From the NCBI RefSeq assembly GCF_002973595.1, contig NZ_PVEO01000010.1:62001-126000 (forward strand): 64,000 nucleotides of DNA. The letters are read 5' to 3'. Numbering within the stretch: the first letter of the stretch is position 1; each line of letters starts with the position of its first letter. Origin of the DNA: Jejuia pallidilutea. Its GTDB lineage: Bacteria > Bacteroidota > Bacteroidia > Flavobacteriales > Flavobacteriaceae. This document shows positions 557-33,888 of the stretch, in pieces. The translations under genes were made by a program, and so were the position numbers. Under the pieces are notes generated by a model, which was given only the letters and a program-made list of their open reading frames with translations, was not told where the DNA came from and did no database searches.

Positions 557-2206
557 ATGACATCAGGATTTGATACGTGGGATTATGTAGTGTTTATTGC
601 TTACGCCATACTTATTTTGGGTGTAGGGTTATGGGTGTCTCGAGATAAGAAGGGGCACCAAAAAAATGCAGAAGACTATTTTTTAGCAAGTAAATCTTTA
701 CCATGGTGGGCTATAGGCGCATCACTTATCGCTGCAAACATATCGGCTGAACAATTTATAGGTATGTCTGGTTCTGGTTTTGCTTCTGGGTTAGCTATAG
801 CGTCTTACGAATGGATGGCTGCTTTAACATTAATTATAGTTGGTAAATACTTTCTTCCAATTTTTATCGAGAAAGGGTTGTATACTATACCAGAGTTTGT
901 GGAAAAACGATATTCAACTAACTTAAAAACAATTTTGGCCGTTTTCTGGATTGCATTGTATGTATTTGTTAACCTTACCACGGTTTTATATTTGGGTTCC
1001 CTAGCTTTAGAAACCATTATGGGAATTCCGCTTATGTATGGTGTAATTGGGTTAGCTTTATTTGCTGCCGCTTATTCATTATATGGCGGTCTTTCGGCTG
1101 TAGCATGGACAGATGTAATTCAAGTTGTATTTTTGGTTTTAGGTGGTTTAATTACAACCTATCTAGCGCTTAATACCGTATCGGGTGGGGAAGGTTTTAT
1201 TTCTGGACTAACTACAGTATTTGAAACCGTACCAGGACGTTTTGAAATGATTTTAGACGAATCGAACCCAGAGTATCAAAACTTACCTGGAATTGGTGTG
1301 CTTGTAGGTGGTATGTGGGTTGCAAATTTATATTATTGGGGTTTTAATCAATATATTATACAAAGAACATTAGCGGCAAAATCGCTTAAAGAAGCTCAAA
1401 AAGGTATTTTATTTGCTGCTATTTTAAAATTAATAATACCTCTAATTGTTGTTATACCTGGTATAGCCGCTTATGTAATGGTGAATGACCCTGAAATTAT
1501 GGCACGATTAGGTGTGAGTGCTTCAGAAAATTTACCATCGTTAAATCAAGCTGATAAAGCATACCCTTGGTTGTTACAGTTTTTACCTGTTGGTTTAAAA
1601 GGTGTTGCTTTTGCTGCCCTTGCTGCTGCTATCGTATCTTCTTTAGCGTCTATGCTAAACTCAACTTCTACCATATTCACTATGGACATTTATAAGCAAT
1701 ACATTAATAAGAATGCTAACGATAAAGCTACGGTAAATATGGGTAGAATTTCTGCGTTTGTTGCTTTAATTATAGCGTGTATTGTAGCACCATTATTGGG
1801 TAATTTAGATCAGGCGTTTCAATTTATACAAGAATATACTGGTATTGTAAGTCCAGGAATTTTAGCAGTATTCTTGTTAGGGCTATTCTGGAAGAAAACT
1901 ACAAACAAAGCAGCTATAGTTGGTGCATTGGCATCTATTCCAATAGCCATGTACTTTAAGGTAGCACCCAAAGGATGGTCCGATTCTGCATTCTTCGTAA
2001 ATGTACCGTTTATGGATCAAATGGGCTATACTTTACTGTTAACCATGGGTGTAATTGCTGTATTTAGTTATATTCAGCATAATGGTGCTGATGACGAAAA
2101 AGGTATTCCCATTACAAAACAGTTGTTTAAAACTTCACCTTTGTTTAATGTAGGTGCATTTGCAGTTATGCTTATTTTAACTGTGCTTTATGCCTTATTC
2201 TGGTAA
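557..2206 (+). CDS. Sodium/solute symporter (SSS/SGLT family), probably sugar uptake
   Basis: This 549-residue polytopic membrane protein has about 14 hydrophobic segments. Its N-terminus has the SSS-type pattern: first helix, then a linker with DYFLASKSLPWW at about 40-51, then GASLIAANISAEQFIGMSGS at about 54-73. Those features and its length resemble Vibrio vSGLT-type Na+/sugar symporters. It would import a sugar or similar solute across the inner membrane with Na+. It has its own -7 box, diverges from a GntR regulator, and is followed by a terminator, so it is probably monocistronic. The substrate is not determined; the GH3 hydrolase gene downstream could supply amino sugars, but that link is inference. 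Confidence 0.9.
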   Translation: MTSGFDTWDYVVFIAYAILILGVGLWVSRDKKGHQKNAEDYFLASKSLPWWAIGASLIAANISAEQFIGMSGSGFASGLAIASYEWMAALTLIIVGKYFLPIFIEKGLYTIPEFVEKRYSTNLKTILAVFWIALYVFVNLTTVLYLGSLALETIMGIPLMYGVIGLALFAAAYSLYGGLSAVAWTDVIQVVFLVLGGLITTYLALNTVSGGEGFISGLTTVFETVPGRFEMILDESNPEYQNLPGIGVLVGGMWVANLYYWGFNQYIIQRTLAAKSLKEAQKGILFAAILKLIIPLIVVIPGIAAYVMVNDPEIMARLGVSASENLPSLNQADKAYPWLLQFLPVGLKGVAFAALAAAIVSSLASMLNSTSTIFTMDIYKQYINKNANDKATVNMGRISAFVALIIACIVAPLLGNLDQAFQFIQEYTGIVSPGILAVFLLGLFWKKTTNKAAIVGALASIPIAMYFKVAPKGWSDSAFFVNVPFMDQMGYTLLLTMGVIAVFSYIQHNGADDEKGIPITKQLFKTSPLFNVGAFAVMLILTVLYALFW

Positions 2207-2236
2207 TTTAATACTACAATTTATTTTATATACATG

Positions 2237-2266
2237 CCCTTAAGTTTTCTTGCTTAGGGGTTTTTT
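2237..2266 (+). terminator. Rho-independent terminator after the symporter
   Basis: CCCTTAAG pairs with CTTAGGGG (one G-U) around an 8-nt loop and is followed by six T. Confidence 0.75.
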
Positions 2267-2399
2267 ATTTGCAAGTCGTCAATTTTATAAGTTTCTACAT
2301 AAAACTATCTTAAAGTGTTTTCCTCTTTTTTCTAAAAGTGTTAATTTGCCACGTTTATTAGTTAAATGCTAACAAATCAATTTGCTTAATTAATCCCCT

Positions 2400-5312
2400 A
2401 TGCGCCATTTCTTTTGTTTCCTATTTTTTTCATGTTTATTTATAAACGGACAAAATTCTACACATCCATTACAGACCAATGATGCCGAAGCCCAAAAAAA
2501 ATGGGTAGATAGTATTTATAATGCAATGACACTTAAGGAAAAAGTAGGGCAGTTGTATATGGTTCAGGTCATGTCCAATCAAAATTCAGTATTAAAAAAC
2601 AGAGTTGTTAAATTAGTGAGAGATCACCATATAGGCGGTATTATATATTCTAATGGAGGTCCAAAACGTCAAGCACGTTTAAATAATGAATTGCAGGCTT
2701 TATCTAAATTGCCAATGCTTATAGGTATGGATGCAGAATGGGGGTTAAACATGCGTTTAGATTCTACCTATGCCTTTCCATATAACATGGCGCTAGGTGC
2801 AATAACAGATAATAATTTGGTAGAACAAACAGGACGACACATTGGCGAACATTGTAAACGATTGGGTGTACATTTTAATTTTGCACCTGTAGTAGATATC
2901 AATACAAATCCTAAAAATCCTATTATAGGCAATCGTTCATTTGGAGAAGATAGAGATAATGTCACCGAAAAAGCTTTAGCCTTTATGAAAGGCATGCAGA
3001 GTGCAGGTGTTTTAGCCAATGCCAAACATTTTCCAGGACATGGTAATACAGAAACAGACTCGCACCTTACCTTGCCAACCATAAATTTTAATGCAAAACG
3101 TATAGATTCTGTTGAGCTATATCCCTACAAGGAACTCATAAAAAAAGGTTTATCTAGCGTTATGGTTGCACACCTAAATGTGCCAAGTTTAGAGCCCAGG
3201 GAAGGCTATCCTTCATCATTATCAAAACATATTGTTACCGATATTTTAAAAGATTCTTTGGGGTTTAAAGGGCTTATTTTTACAGATGCCCTAACCATGA
3301 AAGGTGCAGCAAATTTTAGTAATACTGGAGATATAGATTTAGCTGCTTTTAAAGCGGGAAACGATGTAATGCTAATGTCTGAAGATGTTGAAATTGGCGT
3401 AGATAAAATTATGGATGCCCTTAATAATGGGGAGATTACAGAAGAGCGTTTGGCGCATTCGGTAAAAAAAATATTAATGGCAAAATATAAAGTAGGCTTG
3501 CATAATTACGAGCCTGTTGGCCTGTATAATCTAGATGCCGATTTAAACCGATTGAAAGATGACATTCTCTACGAAGACTTACTAGAAAATGCTATTACTG
3601 TTGTTAAGAATACTAACGATTTAGTACCACTTACACGCTTAGAAACCAAAACACTGGCCTATGTGGCATTAGGTGATGATGATGGTACACCTTTTTATAA
3701 TGAACTAAAAAAGTATACTAAAATTCATAAAATTGAAGCAAACCAACTAGATGTGTTAATTAATAAGTTACAGTCTTACAATACAGTTATTGTTGGCTTT
3801 CATCGTTCAAATGAAAACCCATGGAAATCGCACAAATTCTCTAATAAAGAATTGGTTTGGTTGTACGAAATAGCACAAACCCACGATGTAATATTAAATG
3901 TGTTTGTAAAGCCGTATGCATTAGATGATTTAAAGACTATAGAAAATATCGAGAGTATCATAGTAAGCTATCAAAACAGTACAATAGCACAGGAGAAATC
4001 TGCACAATTAATCTTTGGCGCTATTCCTTCAAAAGGAAAATTACCAGTATCTACAGGGCAGTTTTTTAAGGCAGGCGAAGGTATTGTAAACAATCCTATA
4101 AAACGTTTAGGGTATACCATTCCAGAACGTGTGGGCATGAGTTCAGAGAAGTTAAAACGAGTAGATTCTATTGCTAAAATAGCTGTAGATTCTATGATGA
4201 CTCCGGGCATTCAATTACTAATAGCTAGAAAAGGCAAAGTTATTTATAATAAAAACTTTGGAAAACATACTTACGATGGCAATAGAAAAGTATCTTTTGA
4301 TGATATTTATGATGTAGCCTCACTTACTAAAATTTTAGCGACTTTACCTTTAGTTATGGAAATGGAGGAGAAAGGTTTAATTTCCTTAAACAGCAGCTTA
4401 TCAGAACTGTTGCCCGAATACAAAAATTCAAACAAGGCAAACATTACCATAAAGCAAATGTTATCCCACTATGCGAGATTACGCCCTTGGGAACCATTTT
4501 ATTACCATACCTTAGATACTGCTACAAAACGACCTAGTGGAAAATACTACCGTACCAAGAAAAGCAAAAAATTTGAAATAGAAGTGGCTAAAAACTTGTA
4601 TTTAAGAACAGATTATCAAGATTCTATACAAAAAATCATTAAAGAATCTGAGCTTTTAGATCGGTTGCGTTATCGGTATAGCGATTTTCCCTATTATATT
4701 TTAAAGAAATTTATAGAGAAGCATTACGACAAAGGTTTAGACGAGTTGGTACAAACCCACTTTTATCAATCACTAGGTGCAAATTACACTATGTATAATC
4801 CGTATCGAAAAATAAGTAATCAACACATTGTACCTTCTGAGGTAGACGACTATTATCGTTATCAAAAAGTGCAAGGTTATGTACACGATATGGGTGCTGC
4901 GATGCAAAATGGTGTAGGTGGGCATGCAGGTATTTTTAGTAATGCCAACGATGTGGCAAAAATTATGCAAATGTATTTGCAAAAAGGCTTTTATGGCGGT
5001 AAACGTTATTTAAGCCCGTCTATTATCGATAAATTTAATACGTGTTACTATTGTGAGAAAGACAATAGGCGCGGTGTTGGCTTCGATAAGCCCCAACTAG
5101 ATGAAGAAGGTCCTACTTGTGGTTGTATTTCTATGACAAGTTTTGGACATTCGGGCTTTACAGGAACTTATGCCTGGGCAGATCCAGAAGAAGAAATTGT
5201 TTATGTGTTTTTGGCTAATAGAACGTATCCAAAAGCAGGAAGAAACCTGTTGTTAAAACGAAATATAAGAACCGAAATTCAACGCTTAATTTATGAAGCG
5301 ATAGAAGATTAA
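2400..5312 (+). CDS. Glycoside hydrolase family 3 (NagZ-like) fused to a serine hydrolase (beta-lactamase-like)
   Basis: A signal peptide (residues 1-17) is followed by a GH3 domain and then a class C beta-lactamase-like domain, 970 residues in all. The GH3 part carries the NagZ-type motif KHFPGHGNTETDSH at about 208-221, whose His is the general acid/base in that subgroup, and FTDALTM with the nucleophile Asp near 295. This predicts exo-beta-N-acetylglucosaminidase activity on peptidoglycan fragments. The C-terminal part has SLTK (SxxK) near 640, YRYSDF near 757-762 and HSGFTG near 917, the three usual active-site boxes. The fusion is known in Bacteroidota, and a role in cell-wall turnover or recycling outside the cytoplasm is likely. 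The substrate of the serine hydrolase half is unknown; it could be a peptidase or esterase rather than an antibiotic-degrading enzyme. Confidence 0.9.
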   Translation: MRHFFCFLFFSCLFINGQNSTHPLQTNDAEAQKKWVDSIYNAMTLKEKVGQLYMVQVMSNQNSVLKNRVVKLVRDHHIGGIIYSNGGPKRQARLNNELQALSKLPMLIGMDAEWGLNMRLDSTYAFPYNMALGAITDNNLVEQTGRHIGEHCKRLGVHFNFAPVVDINTNPKNPIIGNRSFGEDRDNVTEKALAFMKGMQSAGVLANAKHFPGHGNTETDSHLTLPTINFNAKRIDSVELYPYKELIKKGLSSVMVAHLNVPSLEPREGYPSSLSKHIVTDILKDSLGFKGLIFTDALTMKGAANFSNTGDIDLAAFKAGNDVMLMSEDVEIGVDKIMDALNNGEITEERLAHSVKKILMAKYKVGLHNYEPVGLYNLDADLNRLKDDILYEDLLENAITVVKNTNDLVPLTRLETKTLAYVALGDDDGTPFYNELKKYTKIHKIEANQLDVLINKLQSYNTVIVGFHRSNENPWKSHKFSNKELVWLYEIAQTHDVILNVFVKPYALDDLKTIENIESIIVSYQNSTIAQEKSAQLIFGAIPSKGKLPVSTGQFFKAGEGIVNNPIKRLGYTIPERVGMSSEKLKRVDSIAKIAVDSMMTPGIQLLIARKGKVIYNKNFGKHTYDGNRKVSFDDIYDVASLTKILATLPLVMEMEEKGLISLNSSLSELLPEYKNSNKANITIKQMLSHYARLRPWEPFYYHTLDTATKRPSGKYYRTKKSKKFEIEVAKNLYLRTDYQDSIQKIIKESELLDRLRYRYSDFPYYILKKFIEKHYDKGLDELVQTHFYQSLGANYTMYNPYRKISNQHIVPSEVDDYYRYQKVQGYVHDMGAAMQNGVGGHAGIFSNANDVAKIMQMYLQKGFYGGKRYLSPSIIDKFNTCYYCEKDNRRGVGFDKPQLDEEGPTCGCISMTSFGHSGFTGTYAWADPEEEIVYVFLANRTYPKAGRNLLLKRNIRTEIQRLIYEAIED

Positions 5313-27804: not shown

Positions 27805-27861
27805 GCAGTTGGCAGTATTCAGTCGGCAGTAGGCAGTCAGCAGTATTCAGTCGGCAGTTAA
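27803..27861 (-). repeat. ACTG-rich repeat, left outer copy (inverted)
   Basis: The 19-bp string GCAGTATTCAGTCGGCAGT occurs twice, at 27812 and 27840 (28-bp period), among further GGCAGT units. On the minus strand it reads as ACTGCCGACTGAATACTG units, the orientation opposite to the copies at 27948 and 28392. It overlaps the stop codon of the preceding gene. Confidence 0.65.
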
Positions 27862-27947
27862 CTAGATAGTAAGTAATAAGTGTTATTGAAATAAGAGATA
27901 GAATTAATTAATAATCAAGAAAAATTATGTTTTTAGGTTGGGCGAAT

Positions 27948-27980
27948 GACTGCCTACTGGAGACAGCAGACTGAATACTG
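27948..27980 (+). repeat. ACTG-rich repeat, inner copy before the four-helix-bundle gene
   Basis: GACTGCCTACTGG, then CAGACTGAATACTG, ends 5 bp before the ATG at 27985. Confidence 0.6.
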
Positions 27981-27984
27981 AAAT

Positions 27985-28347
27985 ATGAGTTTTAAGACTT
28001 TATTGGCATACCAAAAAGGATTTGATTTAGCAATGGAAATTTTTCATTTAACTAAAGATTTTCCAAAATCTGAGATGTTTGGTTTAACTTCTCAGATGGT
28101 GCGTTCAAGTCGTTCCGTGTGCTCAAATATTGCGGAAGGTTACAGGAAACGTCAATATGAAAAGCATTTTAAAAGCAAGATGTCTGATGCTGATGGTGAA
28201 AACTCCGAAACTCAATTATGGCTAGATTTTGCACTAGTATGTAAATATATTTCAGAAGATAAAAGACAAGAATTACAATATAAAAGTGAAGAAATAGGCA
28301 AACTATTAAATTACATGATGAATAATCCAGACAAATTTGGAGTATAA
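27985..28347 (+). CDS. Four-helix bundle protein (23S rRNA intervening-sequence protein/S23 family)
   Basis: A 120-residue protein with the family pattern: YQKGFDLAMEIFHLTKDFPK at about 9-28, then EMFGLTSQMVRSSRSVCSNI and AEGYRKRQYEKHFKSK. It matches PF05635-type four-helix bundles found in 23S rRNA intervening sequences and as free genes in Bacteroidota. They are related to the bAvd protein of diversity-generating retroelements, and the folded pentamer is thought to bind nucleic acid. Here it is a free-standing gene, bounded on both sides by ACTG-rich repeats, inside a run of unrelated genes. No reverse transcriptase is nearby. Its function is unknown. Confidence 0.9.
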   Translation: MSFKTLLAYQKGFDLAMEIFHLTKDFPKSEMFGLTSQMVRSSRSVCSNIAEGYRKRQYEKHFKSKMSDADGENSETQLWLDFALVCKYISEDKRQELQYKSEEIGKLLNYMMNNPDKFGV

Positions 28348-28391
28348 AATTATTAACGAAAATATGATACAGAGTGAGTAGGTATGAGTGA

Positions 28392-28424
28392 GAACTGAAG
28401 ACTGCTTACTGCCAACTGAATACT
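28392..28424 (+). repeat. ACTG-rich repeat, right copy after the four-helix-bundle gene
   Basis: GAACTGAAGACTGCTTACTG and CCAACTGAATACT end 5 bp before the AAA ATPase start. The unit is in inverse orientation to the left outer copy. Confidence 0.6.
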
Positions 28425-28429
28425 AAAAC

Positions 28430-30406
28430 ATGGAACATAACTCAACATTTCCTATAAAACTATCTGAGCTTGACATGCTTCGAGACGAAGCGTCCTCCTA
28501 CTTAAAAAGCGTGCAATGGGCGCAGGGGGCTCGTGCAAAAAACAGAGATAAAAACGCTAAAGATGAATCTATTTTGTTGTATTTATCCCGTGCCAATAAT
28601 GGATCTAATACTACTGAAATCACCTCAGTATCTAAAACTATTTTAGCGCTGAAGAAGCGGTTGTTGCCAGATTCTGTAGCTATTCCTATTTTTCTAAACC
28701 AAACGCTGTATGCAGTACAAGAAGGCATTACTCTAGGTATTTGGATTAAAGATAGCTATTACGATACTTCAGGATTATCGAGTTTAAATGAAAACAAATC
28801 TGCTTTAGATACCAATGGAAAGCGGGAGTTTGAAAGTAAAATGCATACGGCAACCGCTTTTATGTTGTTTGCCCAAGCTTATAAAATATTACATGATTTA
28901 AAACCTCATGCTTCGGACGATTTGAGCGTGATGAAGCAGAAGTTTGCAGGTATTCCCGAAGTGTCATTACTGTCGCCTATAAAAGGGATTTCCTGTAGTT
29001 TGTTTTATTATGACAAATATTTAGGACATCCAGAAATAATTAAATCTGATAAAGATGTTATCGATTTTACAGTAGTATATTTTGAAGCGTTAATAGACGA
29101 GATTCAATTACGCAAAAGCACTTTAGAATACACCGAAACCATAGAAGACAGAACCTACAAACTGGAATCCAGAAGTGTGGTGACGGAGTTTGCCATTTCA
29201 GGATGGAAAAACGTATTTCAAGGTACTGCAAAAAGTGTAGAATTCAATAAAATTCAGTTTGAACAAATAGTTGGCAACCGAGATGCAAAACATTTTGCAC
29301 GACGATTGACTGAACGTCTATTAAGTTATGATTTTACCGCAAAGAAAAACCCGTTTCAAGAATTGGGTGGCTTTATGCCTGTATTTATGGGCTATGGTAT
29401 TCCAGGAACAGGTAAAAGTATGCTAATTGCAGCTATTGCTACACGATTAAAAGCGCATTGCGATACTTTAGATATTCCGTTTTTATTTCACCCCATGCCA
29501 GATACGTTGATTTCTACATTTCAAGGTGGTTCAGCAGAAAAAATGGTAGAGTGGATGAAGCCGCTACAAGATCCTTCAAAATTAATTTTTGCACCAATTG
29601 ATGATGCCGAAAATAATTTGCAAGAGCGCACTGCACAAGGCGTTTCGGCTGGTGTAAAAGAAGTTATTGGTGTGTTTTTAAGATATACTGAAGGTGCTTA
29701 TGCTGTGAATTATGGTAACAGTTCTATTGGATTGTTTACCAATTTACCTGAAATGCTAGATAAAGCTGTGATTTCCCGTGTGCAAGGTCGATTTAAGATT
29801 GATGGTGCGCGTTCAGAACATGATTTTTTAGATCAAGACCATTTGTGGTGGCGTAAAATTGATGACACCATGCCCGATTTTGTGAACATGCAAGGGCCAG
29901 AAAACTACAGCTATTTACAAGATCAAGGTTTGGCAAAAAATATGGGTGATATACTAAGTAGTGTTGAAAAACCTACCGAGGAACGTGTGCATGAGGTTTA
30001 CAATAAAGTTGAGAAGCATTTTAAAACGAATCAACATTTGTTTTACGCAAATCTATACAAAGAAATTCAGTCCATTTTTCCATTTTTTTCGTCGCGTGAT
30101 GTTCGAAATATTCAATCGGCTATATCTTTACGGTTAACCGATTTTGATTTAGAAGAAGATTGGTTTGAAAACCCTGAAATTTATTTTAAAAAAGATTACG
30201 ATACCAAACTTAATATGCTTCAAGAATTAATGCGAGCGAATATGAAGGGGTTAGATTTTAGCGAAATTCGTCGTCAAGAAGTCGTGCGTTATCTAGATAA
30301 TGTAGCCACTATTGCAGATACCGATTTTAAACGAAAAGTAGATGCAAGGGTAAATCAGCTTAATATTGAAACCGAAGCTAGAAAAACATTTGAAAATGAG
30401 CAATAA
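28430..30406 (+). CDS. AAA-family ATPase of an uncharacterised gene cluster
   Basis: A 658-residue soluble protein. A helical N-terminal region (about 1-310) precedes one ATPase module with Walker A GYGIPGTGKSM (Lys near 329), an acidic Walker B-like KLIFAPIDDAEN (Asp near 391-392), a polar segment GNSSIGLFTNLPE (possible sensor) and SRVQGRFKID (possible Arg finger). A helical C-terminus follows. The N-terminal and C-terminal parts were not recognised. It overlaps the Nudix gene by 11 bp, so the two are translationally close. Presumed role: energy-driven remodelling of a partner encoded in the same cluster, perhaps the coiled-coil protein; this is inference. Confidence 0.85.
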   Translation: MEHNSTFPIKLSELDMLRDEASSYLKSVQWAQGARAKNRDKNAKDESILLYLSRANNGSNTTEITSVSKTILALKKRLLPDSVAIPIFLNQTLYAVQEGITLGIWIKDSYYDTSGLSSLNENKSALDTNGKREFESKMHTATAFMLFAQAYKILHDLKPHASDDLSVMKQKFAGIPEVSLLSPIKGISCSLFYYDKYLGHPEIIKSDKDVIDFTVVYFEALIDEIQLRKSTLEYTETIEDRTYKLESRSVVTEFAISGWKNVFQGTAKSVEFNKIQFEQIVGNRDAKHFARRLTERLLSYDFTAKKNPFQELGGFMPVFMGYGIPGTGKSMLIAAIATRLKAHCDTLDIPFLFHPMPDTLISTFQGGSAEKMVEWMKPLQDPSKLIFAPIDDAENNLQERTAQGVSAGVKEVIGVFLRYTEGAYAVNYGNSSIGLFTNLPEMLDKAVISRVQGRFKIDGARSEHDFLDQDHLWWRKIDDTMPDFVNMQGPENYSYLQDQGLAKNMGDILSSVEKPTEERVHEVYNKVEKHFKTNQHLFYANLYKEIQSIFPFFSSRDVRNIQSAISLRLTDFDLEEDWFENPEIYFKKDYDTKLNMLQELMRANMKGLDFSEIRRQEVVRYLDNVATIADTDFKRKVDARVNQLNIETEARKTFENEQ

Positions 30407-30982: not shown

Positions 30983-31060
30983 TTTGTCATTCCTGCGAAG
31001 GCAGGAATCCACATTAAAAACAAAAATAAATTAGTAAGATTCCTGTTTTTACAGAAATGA
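30983..31060. repeat. MITE-like doublet of hairpin repeats (element A)
   Basis: Left hairpin GTCATTCCTGCGAAGGCAGG then AATCCA (ATTCCTGC/GCAGGAAT stem). A 25-bp AT-rich centre follows. The right end (AGATTCCTGTTTTTACAG then AAATGA) is a degenerate inverted copy of the left hairpin. It fills the gap between the Nudix gene and the next gene. The same layout recurs at 33790-33888. Confidence 0.65.
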
Positions 31061-31091
31061 TGTGAATGTGAATAATAATTGGATTAATATA

Positions 31092-31611: not shown

Positions 31612-32847
31612 ATGAACAAACTAAAACAAGCAAACCTATACAGAAGCGAATTAATTCCAGTAAGTGGAAAATTGGTAGAGCGTTACAACAAATGCTTGGT
31701 TAAACTTGGGTTTACAAAAACCAAGTTAAAAACTTTTCATATTGATGGTATTGGTTGGAGTCCAGAAATAGCTGAAGAAAAAGAGGAGACCAATTATCTT
31801 AATAATGGCGAGGCGAACCCACATGGTATTATTATTTCACCACTTCAAAAGGGGAAACCTGTGTACATGCCGTTTCATACGTTTGATAGAGACATGATGA
31901 AATATGTCTTTAAAATCCATGGTGTAAAAATTAAAGACATCACAAGAGATTCAGCTATCTGTTTAGATTTCGATCAAAAAATAGATGCTTTTTATGAACC
32001 TCTTGACGTATTAAAATACAATAAAATCACTGTTCATTTTCATTTAATTGATAACCTCGATAAAGCTAAAGAAGAACAGTTAGAATTGGTAGAGGAATTT
32101 AATAGAGATAACAATTTTATTAGTGAAACCATGCACCAAAAGTTGTTAGATTCAGCTAAAACATACGGAGATTTGCGTCATAGAGATTTAGAATTACACG
32201 AGTTAGAATACTCAACAGATTCTTTTTACACTAGAGCTTTTGGAGGTGTTTATCTGTTACGGGATTTTATTGTGCCCATAGTTGTTTTTGAAGACGAACA
32301 ATGGCATAAAGAAGCCATAAAAGACACCACCCACGATGTTTTGATTTATCATATAAACCAGCCAGAATTGGTAGATAAATTACGCAGTCATTCTATTATT
32401 GATTGCGATTTGGAAGCTGAAGTAAAAACAGAGCGTTACAATCGTATCAAGAAGTTCGAGATGTTTCAGCATTTAAAACAAACTCAACACCCTGTTCAGG
32501 ATATTTTAAATGATCCTATTTTATTCAAAAGCTATTTGAATAAGATAGACATCAAATCTCGAAAAAAAATAATGAGTGTAGAGCGCTACCTAGAAAAGAT
32601 AGAAACTAGTAATCAATTTAAAATAGCCGATATAATTGACGATAAATTATATGTTTCATTGCACAAACCACATTCATCCCTAGAGGCTAAACACCAAGAT
32701 TTAATTTGGAAGCTGTTGATGAATATCTCGCCAAAGGATGTATTGTTTTGGTATTGGTATGATAAAGAGGATTTTTATACTAAATTTAAAGATTGGGACG
32801 ATTCTTTTAAGGATTGGGTAATCGAAATAATTGGTGATAATATTTAG
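31612..32847 (+). CDS. Conserved Bacteroidota protein of unknown function (possibly DUF6638)
   Basis: A 411-residue soluble protein with no membrane helix or catalytic motif that I recognise. It begins MNKLKQANLYRSELIPVSGK and has notable segments ANPHGIIISPLQKGKPVYMP near 84-103, RAFGGVYLLRDFIVPIVVFE near 205-224, and a Trp-rich C-terminus (VLFWYWYDKEDFYTKFKDWD). From memory the sequence may belong to the DUF6638 family seen beside AAA ATPases in this phylum; that was not checked. It lies on the same strand as the ATPase and membrane genes and is probably part of the same cluster. Confidence 0.75.
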   Translation: MNKLKQANLYRSELIPVSGKLVERYNKCLVKLGFTKTKLKTFHIDGIGWSPEIAEEKEETNYLNNGEANPHGIIISPLQKGKPVYMPFHTFDRDMMKYVFKIHGVKIKDITRDSAICLDFDQKIDAFYEPLDVLKYNKITVHFHLIDNLDKAKEEQLELVEEFNRDNNFISETMHQKLLDSAKTYGDLRHRDLELHELEYSTDSFYTRAFGGVYLLRDFIVPIVVFEDEQWHKEAIKDTTHDVLIYHINQPELVDKLRSHSIIDCDLEAEVKTERYNRIKKFEMFQHLKQTQHPVQDILNDPILFKSYLNKIDIKSRKKIMSVERYLEKIETSNQFKIADIIDDKLYVSLHKPHSSLEAKHQDLIWKLLMNISPKDVLFWYWYDKEDFYTKFKDWDDSFKDWVIEIIGDNI

Positions 32848-32878
32848 GTTTTTTTAAACTAATTTTATAATACGTTAA

Positions 32879-32909
32879 TTTGTCATTCCGCACTTGATGC
32901 GGAATCCAT
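32879..32909 (+). repeat. Left 31-bp inverted repeat of the GIY-YIG cassette
   Basis: It runs TTTGTCATTCCGCACTTGAT and then GCGGAATCCAT. Internally ATTCCGCA pairs with TGCGGAAT around CTTGA, so it can form a hairpin. Its exact reverse complement is at 33218-33248. It ends 6 bp before the GIY-YIG start codon. Confidence 0.85.
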
Positions 32910-32915
32910 AGAAAT

Positions 32916-33218
32916 ATGAAAGTGAACTACCATCAATATTACGTTTATCTTTTATCAAATAAAAAAAATGGGACTTTGTATATTGGGCTAACAAATGATT
33001 TAGAAAGAAGAATGTTTGAACATAAAAATAAGTTAGTATCTGGATTTACCTCAAAATATGGGGTGGATAAATTAATGTATTTTGAACATTATCAATACGT
33101 TAATGATGCTATTAAAAGAGAAAAGCAATTAAAAAACTGGAATCGCCAATGGAAAATTGATTTAATTGAACAAGATAATAATAAGTGGGAAGATTTGTCT
33201 TCTGATTGGATTTATTAA
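32916..33218 (+). CDS. GIY-YIG nuclease family protein
   Basis: A 100-residue single-domain GIY-YIG protein. YYVYLLSNKKNGTLYIGLTN at about 7-26 gives the paired Tyr motifs (YVY...YIG), followed by DLERRMFEHKNK with the conserved Arg. A Lys-rich GFTSKYGVDKLMYFEHYQYV and a C-terminal NWNRQWKIDLIE complete the small UPF0213/YhbQ-like form common in Flavobacteriia. Its exact bounding by two hairpin inverted repeats (6 bp upstream of the start, and starting at the last base of the stop codon) suggests a self-contained mobile cassette. Whether it cuts DNA and where is not known. Confidence 0.92.
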   Translation: MKVNYHQYYVYLLSNKKNGTLYIGLTNDLERRMFEHKNKLVSGFTSKYGVDKLMYFEHYQYVNDAIKREKQLKNWNRQWKIDLIEQDNNKWEDLSSDWIY

Positions 33219-33248
33219 TGGATTCCGCATCAAGTGCGGAATGACAAA
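33218..33248 (-). repeat. Right 31-bp inverted repeat of the GIY-YIG cassette
   Basis: It begins ATGGATTCCGCATCAAGTGC and is the perfect reverse complement of 32879-32909 over all 31 bases. It starts on the last base of the GIY-YIG stop codon, so gene and repeat are fused. The next gene starts 12 bp downstream. Confidence 0.85.
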
Positions 33249-33259
33249 AACTTTAAACT

Positions 33260-33784
33260 ATGACACTAGAACTCATAATTTTTATCGGCGCTATATTATT
33301 TGGGGCATTACTATATTGGAGAGAATCCCAAAGCAACAGGTTATATCGTTTTTTTAACAAACTGATGTATTCCAAGGAATTACAAATGAAACCATCAGAT
33401 AAAACAGGGTTTTTGTACCAACAAAAATTCATTATCCGTTTGGTGTTTATTGGGTTTCTATTTCTTATCGGAATAGTAATAACACGTTTTTTAATACCTA
33501 TAGATGTAGCTACTATTTCAATTTTTGCTTCTATGATTGTGGGAACTTTATTGGGCACATATTTAGCAGGTTTTATTTTTAAGTCTAGTGCGGTTATAGA
33601 TAAAAAGAGTGAATCTGTTGAGGATTTGGTTAAAGAAACGATAGATAAAGGAAAAGATTTTATTGAGGATATTACAACTAAAAAACCTCCAGTAATTGAA
33701 GAAGCAAAAAAGGAGATTGAAAATGAGCCAAAAACAAAAGAGAAAAGCGCAAGAGAACGTTTAAAAGATAAAGGGCTTTTATAA
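33260..33784 (+). CDS. Membrane protein with a charged C-terminal tail, unknown function
   Basis: A 174-residue protein with a hydrophobic N-terminal helix (LELIIFIGAILFGALLYW), two further helices (about 57-77 and 84-107), and a Lys/Glu-rich tail from about 115 onward (DKKSESVEDLVKETIDKGKD). No enzymatic motif is visible. It follows the GIY-YIG cassette and precedes another membrane protein of the cluster. The family was not recognised. Confidence 0.75.
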   Translation: MTLELIIFIGAILFGALLYWRESQSNRLYRFFNKLMYSKELQMKPSDKTGFLYQQKFIIRLVFIGFLFLIGIVITRFLIPIDVATISIFASMIVGTLLGTYLAGFIFKSSAVIDKKSESVEDLVKETIDKGKDFIEDITTKKPPVIEEAKKEIENEPKTKEKSARERLKDKGLL

Positions 33785-33789
33785 TTATT

Positions 33790-33888
33790 ATTTCTGCGTG
33801 TTGCACTCAGCTTTTTTAAAGTGAAGGCAGGAATCCGTTTTTAAAATAGAAATTAAATTAATAAGACTCCCGTTATGGTAGGAGTAAG
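33790..33888. repeat. MITE-like doublet of hairpin repeats (element B)
   Basis: GAAGGCAGGAATCCG is followed by an AT-rich centre (TTTTAAAATAGAAATTAAAT) and a second hairpin ACTCCCGTTATGGTAGGAGT. The centre aligns with that of element A at 30983-31060, down to TTAnTAAGA before the right hairpin. The left arm is expanded and degenerate. It fills the gap before the last gene of the run. Confidence 0.6.

Follow-up and report, generated by a model that had tools for sequence, protein, structure and literature searches.

The GIY-YIG fold is known from homing endonucleases, and bare pairs of palindromes, the REPINs, occur elsewhere in genomes that carry REPtrons. In the REPtron itself, a small enzyme gene, that of the RAYT, lies inside short palindromes of the GTAG REP class, according to the accessible part of a 2013 survey (Di Nocera et al., PMC3733652). 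The same part of that survey places CGTC REPs in five phyla, apparently without a dedicated transposase, reports no RAYT flanked by CGTC repeats, and defines the repeats by a CGTC head (often TGTC or CCTC), a stem of 8-9 bp that starts with AT, a loop of 4-5 nucleotides, and a CCA tail (PMC3733652). No paper joining GIY-YIG with REPs was seen among the matches listed in searches of open PubMed Central papers. The accessible text of PMC9465073 contains both 'GIY-YIG' and 'extragenic'; the words 'endonuclease', 'transposase', and 'GIY' were absent from the accessible text of the RepRanger paper (PMC12306157).

In the window, the whole stretch of 64,000 nucleotides of Jejuia pallidilutea DNA that was analyzed, a small GIY-YIG nuclease gene was located between two inverted REPs (Table 1). 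The arms at 32879-32909 and 33218-33248 are perfect reverse complements, as the original prediction had stated, and the longest inverted match is 31 bases. Both fold into hairpins with an 8-bp stem and a 5-nt loop (z -4.49 and -4.73), in agreement with the earlier description of each repeat as a hairpin. The spacing claimed for the gene could be confirmed from the coordinates: the ATG at 32916 is placed 6 bases past the left arm, and the right arm opens with the final base of the stop codon, 33218. The arm sequence reads TGTC-ATTCCGCA-CTTGA-TGCGGAAT-CCA with the TGTC head facing away from the gene, and both arms have the TGTC head, 8-bp stem, 5-nt loop, and CCA tail of CGTC-tagged REPs. The likeness to these REPs, which include dRS3 of Neisseria and RPE-4 and RPE-6 of Rickettsia, covers the length of the stem and its AT start as well as the head, loop, and tail. 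The 25-base arm core was present in two copies in the window when up to 3 mismatches were allowed, and in no copy in 100 shuffles. A chance origin of the arms was rejected on the basis of these shuffles and of the control genes described below. Related hairpins without a gene had also been noticed near by; a clear one is present at 30985-31011, and degenerate partners could be recognized by eye. A search of the whole genome with the pattern ATTCCGC-N3-12-GCGGAAT revealed the window's stem at the two flanks only and another stem once, and nine REP places, two of them with the unit's stem, were located in this genome by one pattern. High genomic copy number, a trait of CGTC REPs, was absent in the window's genome; up to 346 REPs were counted in other genomes.

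Table 1. Positions of the REP-gene-REP unit and of neighboring sites and repeats in the window.
Feature	Position	Strand	Description
Third site, empty in the window	30366..30406		658-aa gene (28430-30406) overlaps the next gene (ORF from 30366)
Related REP pair without gene	30985..31061		left REP clear (30985-31011); mirror partner degenerate (31038-31061, by eye)
Site 1	32848..33259		intergenic, between DUF6638 gene (31612-32847) and 174-aa gene (33260-33784)
Whole unit, REP-gene-REP	32879-33248		370 bp
Left REP	32879..32909	+	core 32881-32908; TGTC head outward, 8-bp stem, 5-nt loop, CCA tail gene-ward
Small GIY-YIG nuclease gene	32916..33218	+	100 aa; has the conserved family residues Y11, Y22, R32, E69, N88
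Right REP	33218..33248	-	core 33219-33246; perfect reverse complement of the left REP
Degenerate REP-like pair	33821..33888 (about)		by eye

The resemblance to REP/RAYT units that had been pointed out for this locus holds in architecture, as an enzyme gene is flanked by palindromes in both cases. However, the REPtron enzyme is an HUH/Y1 tyrosine transposase, whereas that of the window is an unrelated GIY-YIG protein, and the REPtron palindromes are GTAG-tagged, whereas those of the window carry a CGTC/TGTC head and a CCA tail. GIY-YIG homing endonucleases have the nuclease fold, and possibly selfish spread, in common with the unit; unlike theirs, the window's gene stands on its own between two other genes, with an inverted REP on each side. 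The 370 bp of the locus probably form a minimal mobile unit, made up of two head-outward CGTC-type REPs and the gene of a GIY-YIG nuclease that moves its own REPs.

The encoded protein carries a GIY-YIG domain (PF01541, E 2.7e-18, residues 7-81). Of the 109 proteins gathered, L008 and L070 were excluded for internal stops and L045 and L071 for a length above 140 aa; an outward REP was present for 77 of the remaining 105, and these 77 entered the alignment counts. Among these 77 REP-flanked members, Y11, Y22, G24, R32, H36, E69, and N88 were invariant or almost so (Y11 in 76/76, R32 in 76/77, E69 and N88 in 77/77); the conserved Tyr, Arg, Glu, and Asn are the catalytic residues of the GIY-YIG superfamily. 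Synonymous change greatly exceeded replacement change in the GIY-YIG gene, with pN of 0.07-0.20 against pS of 0.60-0.83, the latter close to saturation, in eight comparisons. The nearest solved structures by sequence were of the UPF0213/YhbQ group (1zg2, E 1.8e-8; 1ywl, E 2.2e-6). The relation to UPF0213 was obtained by profile; the window's genome, searched with E. coli YhbQ, gave no match at E 1e-5. The NPxWxDL-like end is missing (by eye) from the sequences of the 13 YhbQ-like loci described below. The TIGR01453 model also matched, but under its cut-off.

The occurrence of REPs around homologous genes was evaluated in the best 80 of at least 485 confirmed loci from GTDB contigs and in a phylum set of 29 loci, obtained by removing the window's own locus (L138) from 30. 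Using a strict finder, REPs pointing head-outward on both sides were found at 32 of the 80 loci (best 80 of at least 485), compared to 1 of 309 control genes and none of 42 short control genes of the same stretches. A wider finder detected the arrangement at 36 of these best 80 of at least 485 loci and at 12 of the 29 phylum loci, which gave 48/109 for the joined sets (80 of them the best of at least 485) against 2/310 control genes. REPs pointing inward on both sides were seen at 4 of the 80 (best 80 of at least 485), 5 of the 29, and 3 of the 310 controls. With both finders joined, 46 of the best 80 of at least 485 loci had outward REPs on both sides, a figure with controls per single finder only, and 69 had at least one outward REP. 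By taxon, with labels assigned by hand, the joined finders gave 23 of 40 loci in Bacteroidota in the wide sense, 7 of 13 in Pseudomonadota, 4 of 7 in Patescibacteria, and others, within the best 80 of at least 485; the remaining 34 of these 80 lacked outward REPs on both sides. The nearest outward REP was placed at a median of 22 bases upstream and 8.5 bases downstream (wider finder).

REPs on both sides were found at none of 13 YhbQ-like loci, which are the best of 30 loci (E up to 7.2e-12) cut by hand and include one one-sided finder match, and at none of 17 loci of a third GIY-YIG group. The enrichment of the palindrome near GIY-YIG genes, on which the original prediction depended, was strong for this subfamily, 48/109 (80 being the best of at least 485) against 0/30 for the other GIY-YIG genes (p 5e-7), and across the loci compared REP association was shown to be general to the subfamily in many phyla. 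In 39 units, the two REPs were more alike than other REPs of the stretch (0.71 vs 0.53, p 9e-4); the flanking stems were unlike each other in L009, L011, and L012. Similarity of proteins and of REPs was weakly correlated (Mantel r 0.23, reached in 0 of 2000 permutations; 0.13 for pairs below 60% identity). While the accessible part of the published set lists CGTC REPs without a dedicated enzyme, members of one GIY-YIG subfamily frequently accompany them here. A Neisseria gonorrhoeae homologue (L228, NZ_CP119140.1) lies among clustered CGTC-type (dRS3-like) repeats, and those closest to the gene point inward. Around the homologue of Sinorhizobium meliloti pSymB (L229), flank hairpins missed by the finders could be seen by eye and are perhaps a CCTC-headed variant; the finders gave no REP at the Rhizobium homologues L231 and L232.

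The comparison with relatives that had been proposed, of filled and empty sites, was conducted at four places. Site 1, which holds the window's unit, was tallied in 15 relatives besides the window; L102, L106, and L111, with both flank genes, were left out. The flanks join without the unit in eight of the 15 (L090-L095, L101, and L103). The other seven hold a unit with a decayed gene (L089), a lone REP (L099), a REP pair without a gene (L104), or other sequence (L096, L097, L098, and L100). At the empty sites, the flank match ends at query position 570-571 (523 in L101) and restarts at 945-977, which corresponds to 32869-32870 (32822 in L101) and 33244-33276 in the window, with 0-78 bases between; the repeats extend from 32879 to 33248. 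A filled site 1 is also present in L008 (premature stop), L010, L011, and L012. The wider finder detected no REP at any of the eight empty sites 1 or of the eight empty sites 2 described below, and hence, at site 1 at least, the entire unit was gained or lost and not the gene alone. The GIY-YIG gene decays after insertion, as seen in the site-1 copies L089 (G017), which no longer reads through, and L008 with its premature stop. Between genera, the GIY-YIG protein at site 1 is 79-82% identical, compared to 62-75% for DUF6638. In a tree of 30 proteins, the nearest relative of the window's copy was the copy of genome G008, which is placed at another site; the tree needs two changes for site 1, and one change sufficed in 0% of 200 bootstrap trees. 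The starred branches of this tree require no second change at site 1.

A second paralogue of the window's genome, L002, defines site 2. Its orthologous site is filled in four of 12 genomes of the genus (G000, G006, G007, and G010) and empty in eight (G001-G005, G008, G009, and G011). The stretch missing at the empty sites corresponds to L002 positions 1447-1836, and the L002 REPs span 1460-1826. A small headless hairpin is present at four of the eight empty sites (L210, L212, L213, and L214), and those of L210 and L214 have an ATTC...GAATCTA shape like a decayed REP. The third site is bordered by the 658-aa gene, which we take to be AAA-like, and an ORF that we take to be NUDIX-like; a GIY-YIG gene separates the two in both G008 and Olleya L022. 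The copy of G008 at this site has 83% protein identity, and site 1 of G008 is empty. In Azospirillum lipoferum 4B, a GIY-YIG gene is located between two complete REP pairs, between sufB and sufC. In eleven other records, the two flanks match as separate pieces (84.7-94.5% identity), and the insert was absent in all four of those that were examined at the sequence level (86.2-94.5%). Homologues fixed at one site with unrelated flanks were not seen; at orthologous places, the REP-gene-REP arrangement could be shown by comparison to be present or absent as one block. Neither of the two outcomes named as refuting the original prediction was observed.

The edges of the units were found at the REPs or within about 13 bases of them. 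Target-site duplication, a classical trait of insertion sequences, was absent in 36 units, where the longest direct match was 2.17 compared to 2.18 in mismatched pairs, and direct matches of at least 5 were present in 3 of the 36 against 1.9 expected. No match was obtained among phage records for carriage of the unit by phages. Tandem and shortened forms could be observed in several genomes. Three tandem units with a period of about 419 occur in G124, and G006 carries one full unit and three miniatures, in which two REPs surround the 3' part of the gene, with a period of 263. One miniature with the 3' part is present in G001 and two with the 5' part in G030, and direct repeats of the REP-spacer-REP junction, recognized by eye, lie on either side of the G008 copy. 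Sixteen stretches around lone REPs of the window's type were taken from relatives (L122-L137); in seven of them, a head-outward partner is present 11-23 bases off. In L196 (G111 C34:5800-11000, positions 1129-4024), a more distant GIY-YIG gene is repeated head-to-tail about eight times with a period of 364, and an apparent tRNA 3' end, read by eye, is repeated at each border.

Numbers of GIY-YIG genes and REPs were compared in 247 genomes of the phylum, 148 of which gave GIY-YIG matches and 126 pattern REPs; the reversed REP pattern gave 5 matches in total by hand count. The two counts were correlated (Spearman 0.54), a value reached by none of 5000 within-family permutations (mean 0.35), and part of this correlation comes from the unit's own two REPs. 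Among the six families presented, the correlation was significant in f37 (0.69) and f48 (0.79) and non-significant in the window's own family f1 (n 27, rho 0.27, p 0.17), f31 (n 54, rho 0.09), f30, and f38. Any excess of REPs over two per gene was seen in 34% of the genomes with GIY-YIG against 27% of the others, and an excess of at least 5 in 35/148 against 5/99 (hand count); five of the 99 genomes without a detected GIY-YIG gene carry at least 5 REPs. Lone copies of the window's REP occur in G002 and G003, where the GIY-YIG matches listed are only partial or have 66-79% DNA identity. Genome G217 (L201) contains 346 REPs of the GTCATTCC pattern and a single detected GIY-YIG gene, the flanking REPs of which are of another stem type.

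The presence and absence of the block, its edges, tandem copies and miniatures, and the association with the subfamily are established by comparison. We infer from these that the REP is the substrate which the nuclease binds and cuts, at a particular position, and that this drives the movement. Edges at or near the TGTC heads, the lack of target duplication, the tandem copies, and the miniatures point to a cut at the head and to copying in replication or repair. The nuclease would most likely recognize its own REP in hairpin or cruciform form, cutting beside the TGTC head; repair or replication would then copy the DNA between the two heads to a new place without target duplication. Miniatures and bare REP pairs could arise through local tandem copying and internal deletion, and may still be mobile by means of the same enzyme. 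The GIY-YIG subfamily is a good candidate for the enzyme that spreads CGTC REPs. In its wider form, this proposal, which we judge to have somewhat better than even chances, states that one GIY-YIG subfamily is the missing mobilizing enzyme of the CGTC-REP superfamily in many phyla, a second and independently evolved class of REP-spreading enzyme that travels in a self-carrying unit of about 370 bp without target duplication. If true, the open question of the CGTC-REP enzyme could be put to a direct test with a protein of 100 residues and a hairpin of 31 bases, the spread of REPs would have arisen on two unrelated nuclease folds, and a free-standing GIY-YIG enzyme would be able to move DNA.

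The main rival is a variant similar to homing, in which the REPs are spread by other means and the GIY-YIG protein, acting as a homing endonuclease, cuts REPs that lack a gene and copies itself in by double-strand-break repair, with the REPs serving as homology arms. Gene-less REPs and REP pairs are common, site 1 itself offers a lone REP (L099) and a pair (L104) without the gene, and the Azospirillum lipoferum gene between two complete REP pairs is in line with such an event, as are the homing fold of the protein and the TIGR01453 matches below cut-off. The higher likeness of the site-1 protein than of DUF6638 between genera (79-82% vs 62-75%) also fits, and the variant gains a little from the headless hairpins at four of the eight empty sites 2, two of them shaped like decayed REPs. 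However, the wider finder sees no REP at the 16 empty sites 1 and 2, eight of each, and the miniatures retain both REPs and one gene end, which would be expected if the element is moved or amplified in its entirety. Homing-like invasion is considered unlikely, although it stands ahead of the other alternatives.

The GIY-YIG gene might also be passive cargo that rides along while a RAYT or another transposase moves the REPs. Y1 (RAYT-type) transposases were found in 149 of the 247 genomes and showed a weak correlation with REPs (rho 0.24, reached in 11 of 2000 within-family permutations). However, the partial correlation of Y1 with REPs was 0.03 given GIY-YIG, compared to 0.50 for GIY-YIG given Y1, and no Y1 transposase (PF01797) was matched in the window's genome at E 1e-8. 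The accessible part of the survey reports no RAYT flanked by CGTC repeats (PMC3733652), and the transposase test conducted here covered the Y1 class. Passive carriage is improbable, and slightly more improbable still is a reading without any role in mobility, under which the hairpins are the terminator and leader regulator of an ordinary host gene, selected at each locus. Hairpins near gene ends can terminate transcripts, and an outward REP at a median of 22 bp upstream of the start could act in the leader; however, control genes are almost never so arranged (1/309 and 2/310), 30 other small GIY-YIG genes lack the arrangement, the whole block is missing from relatives, and head and orientation recur on both sides.

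Apart from the GIY-YIG unit, an inverted-repeat arrangement of another kind was observed at 27814-28424 of the window, where a 23S_rRNA_IVP four-helix-bundle gene (27985-28347) lies inside imperfect, CAGT-rich inverted repeats (39 nt, 82% complementary). Genes of the 23S_rRNA_IVP type with inverted repeats are possibly a second kind of minimal unit. By eye, an apparent 23S_rRNA_IVP-like gene between GAAGCTTGAAG-type inverted repeats could be recognized at site 1 of G003, and a remnant-like stretch at site 1 of G030.
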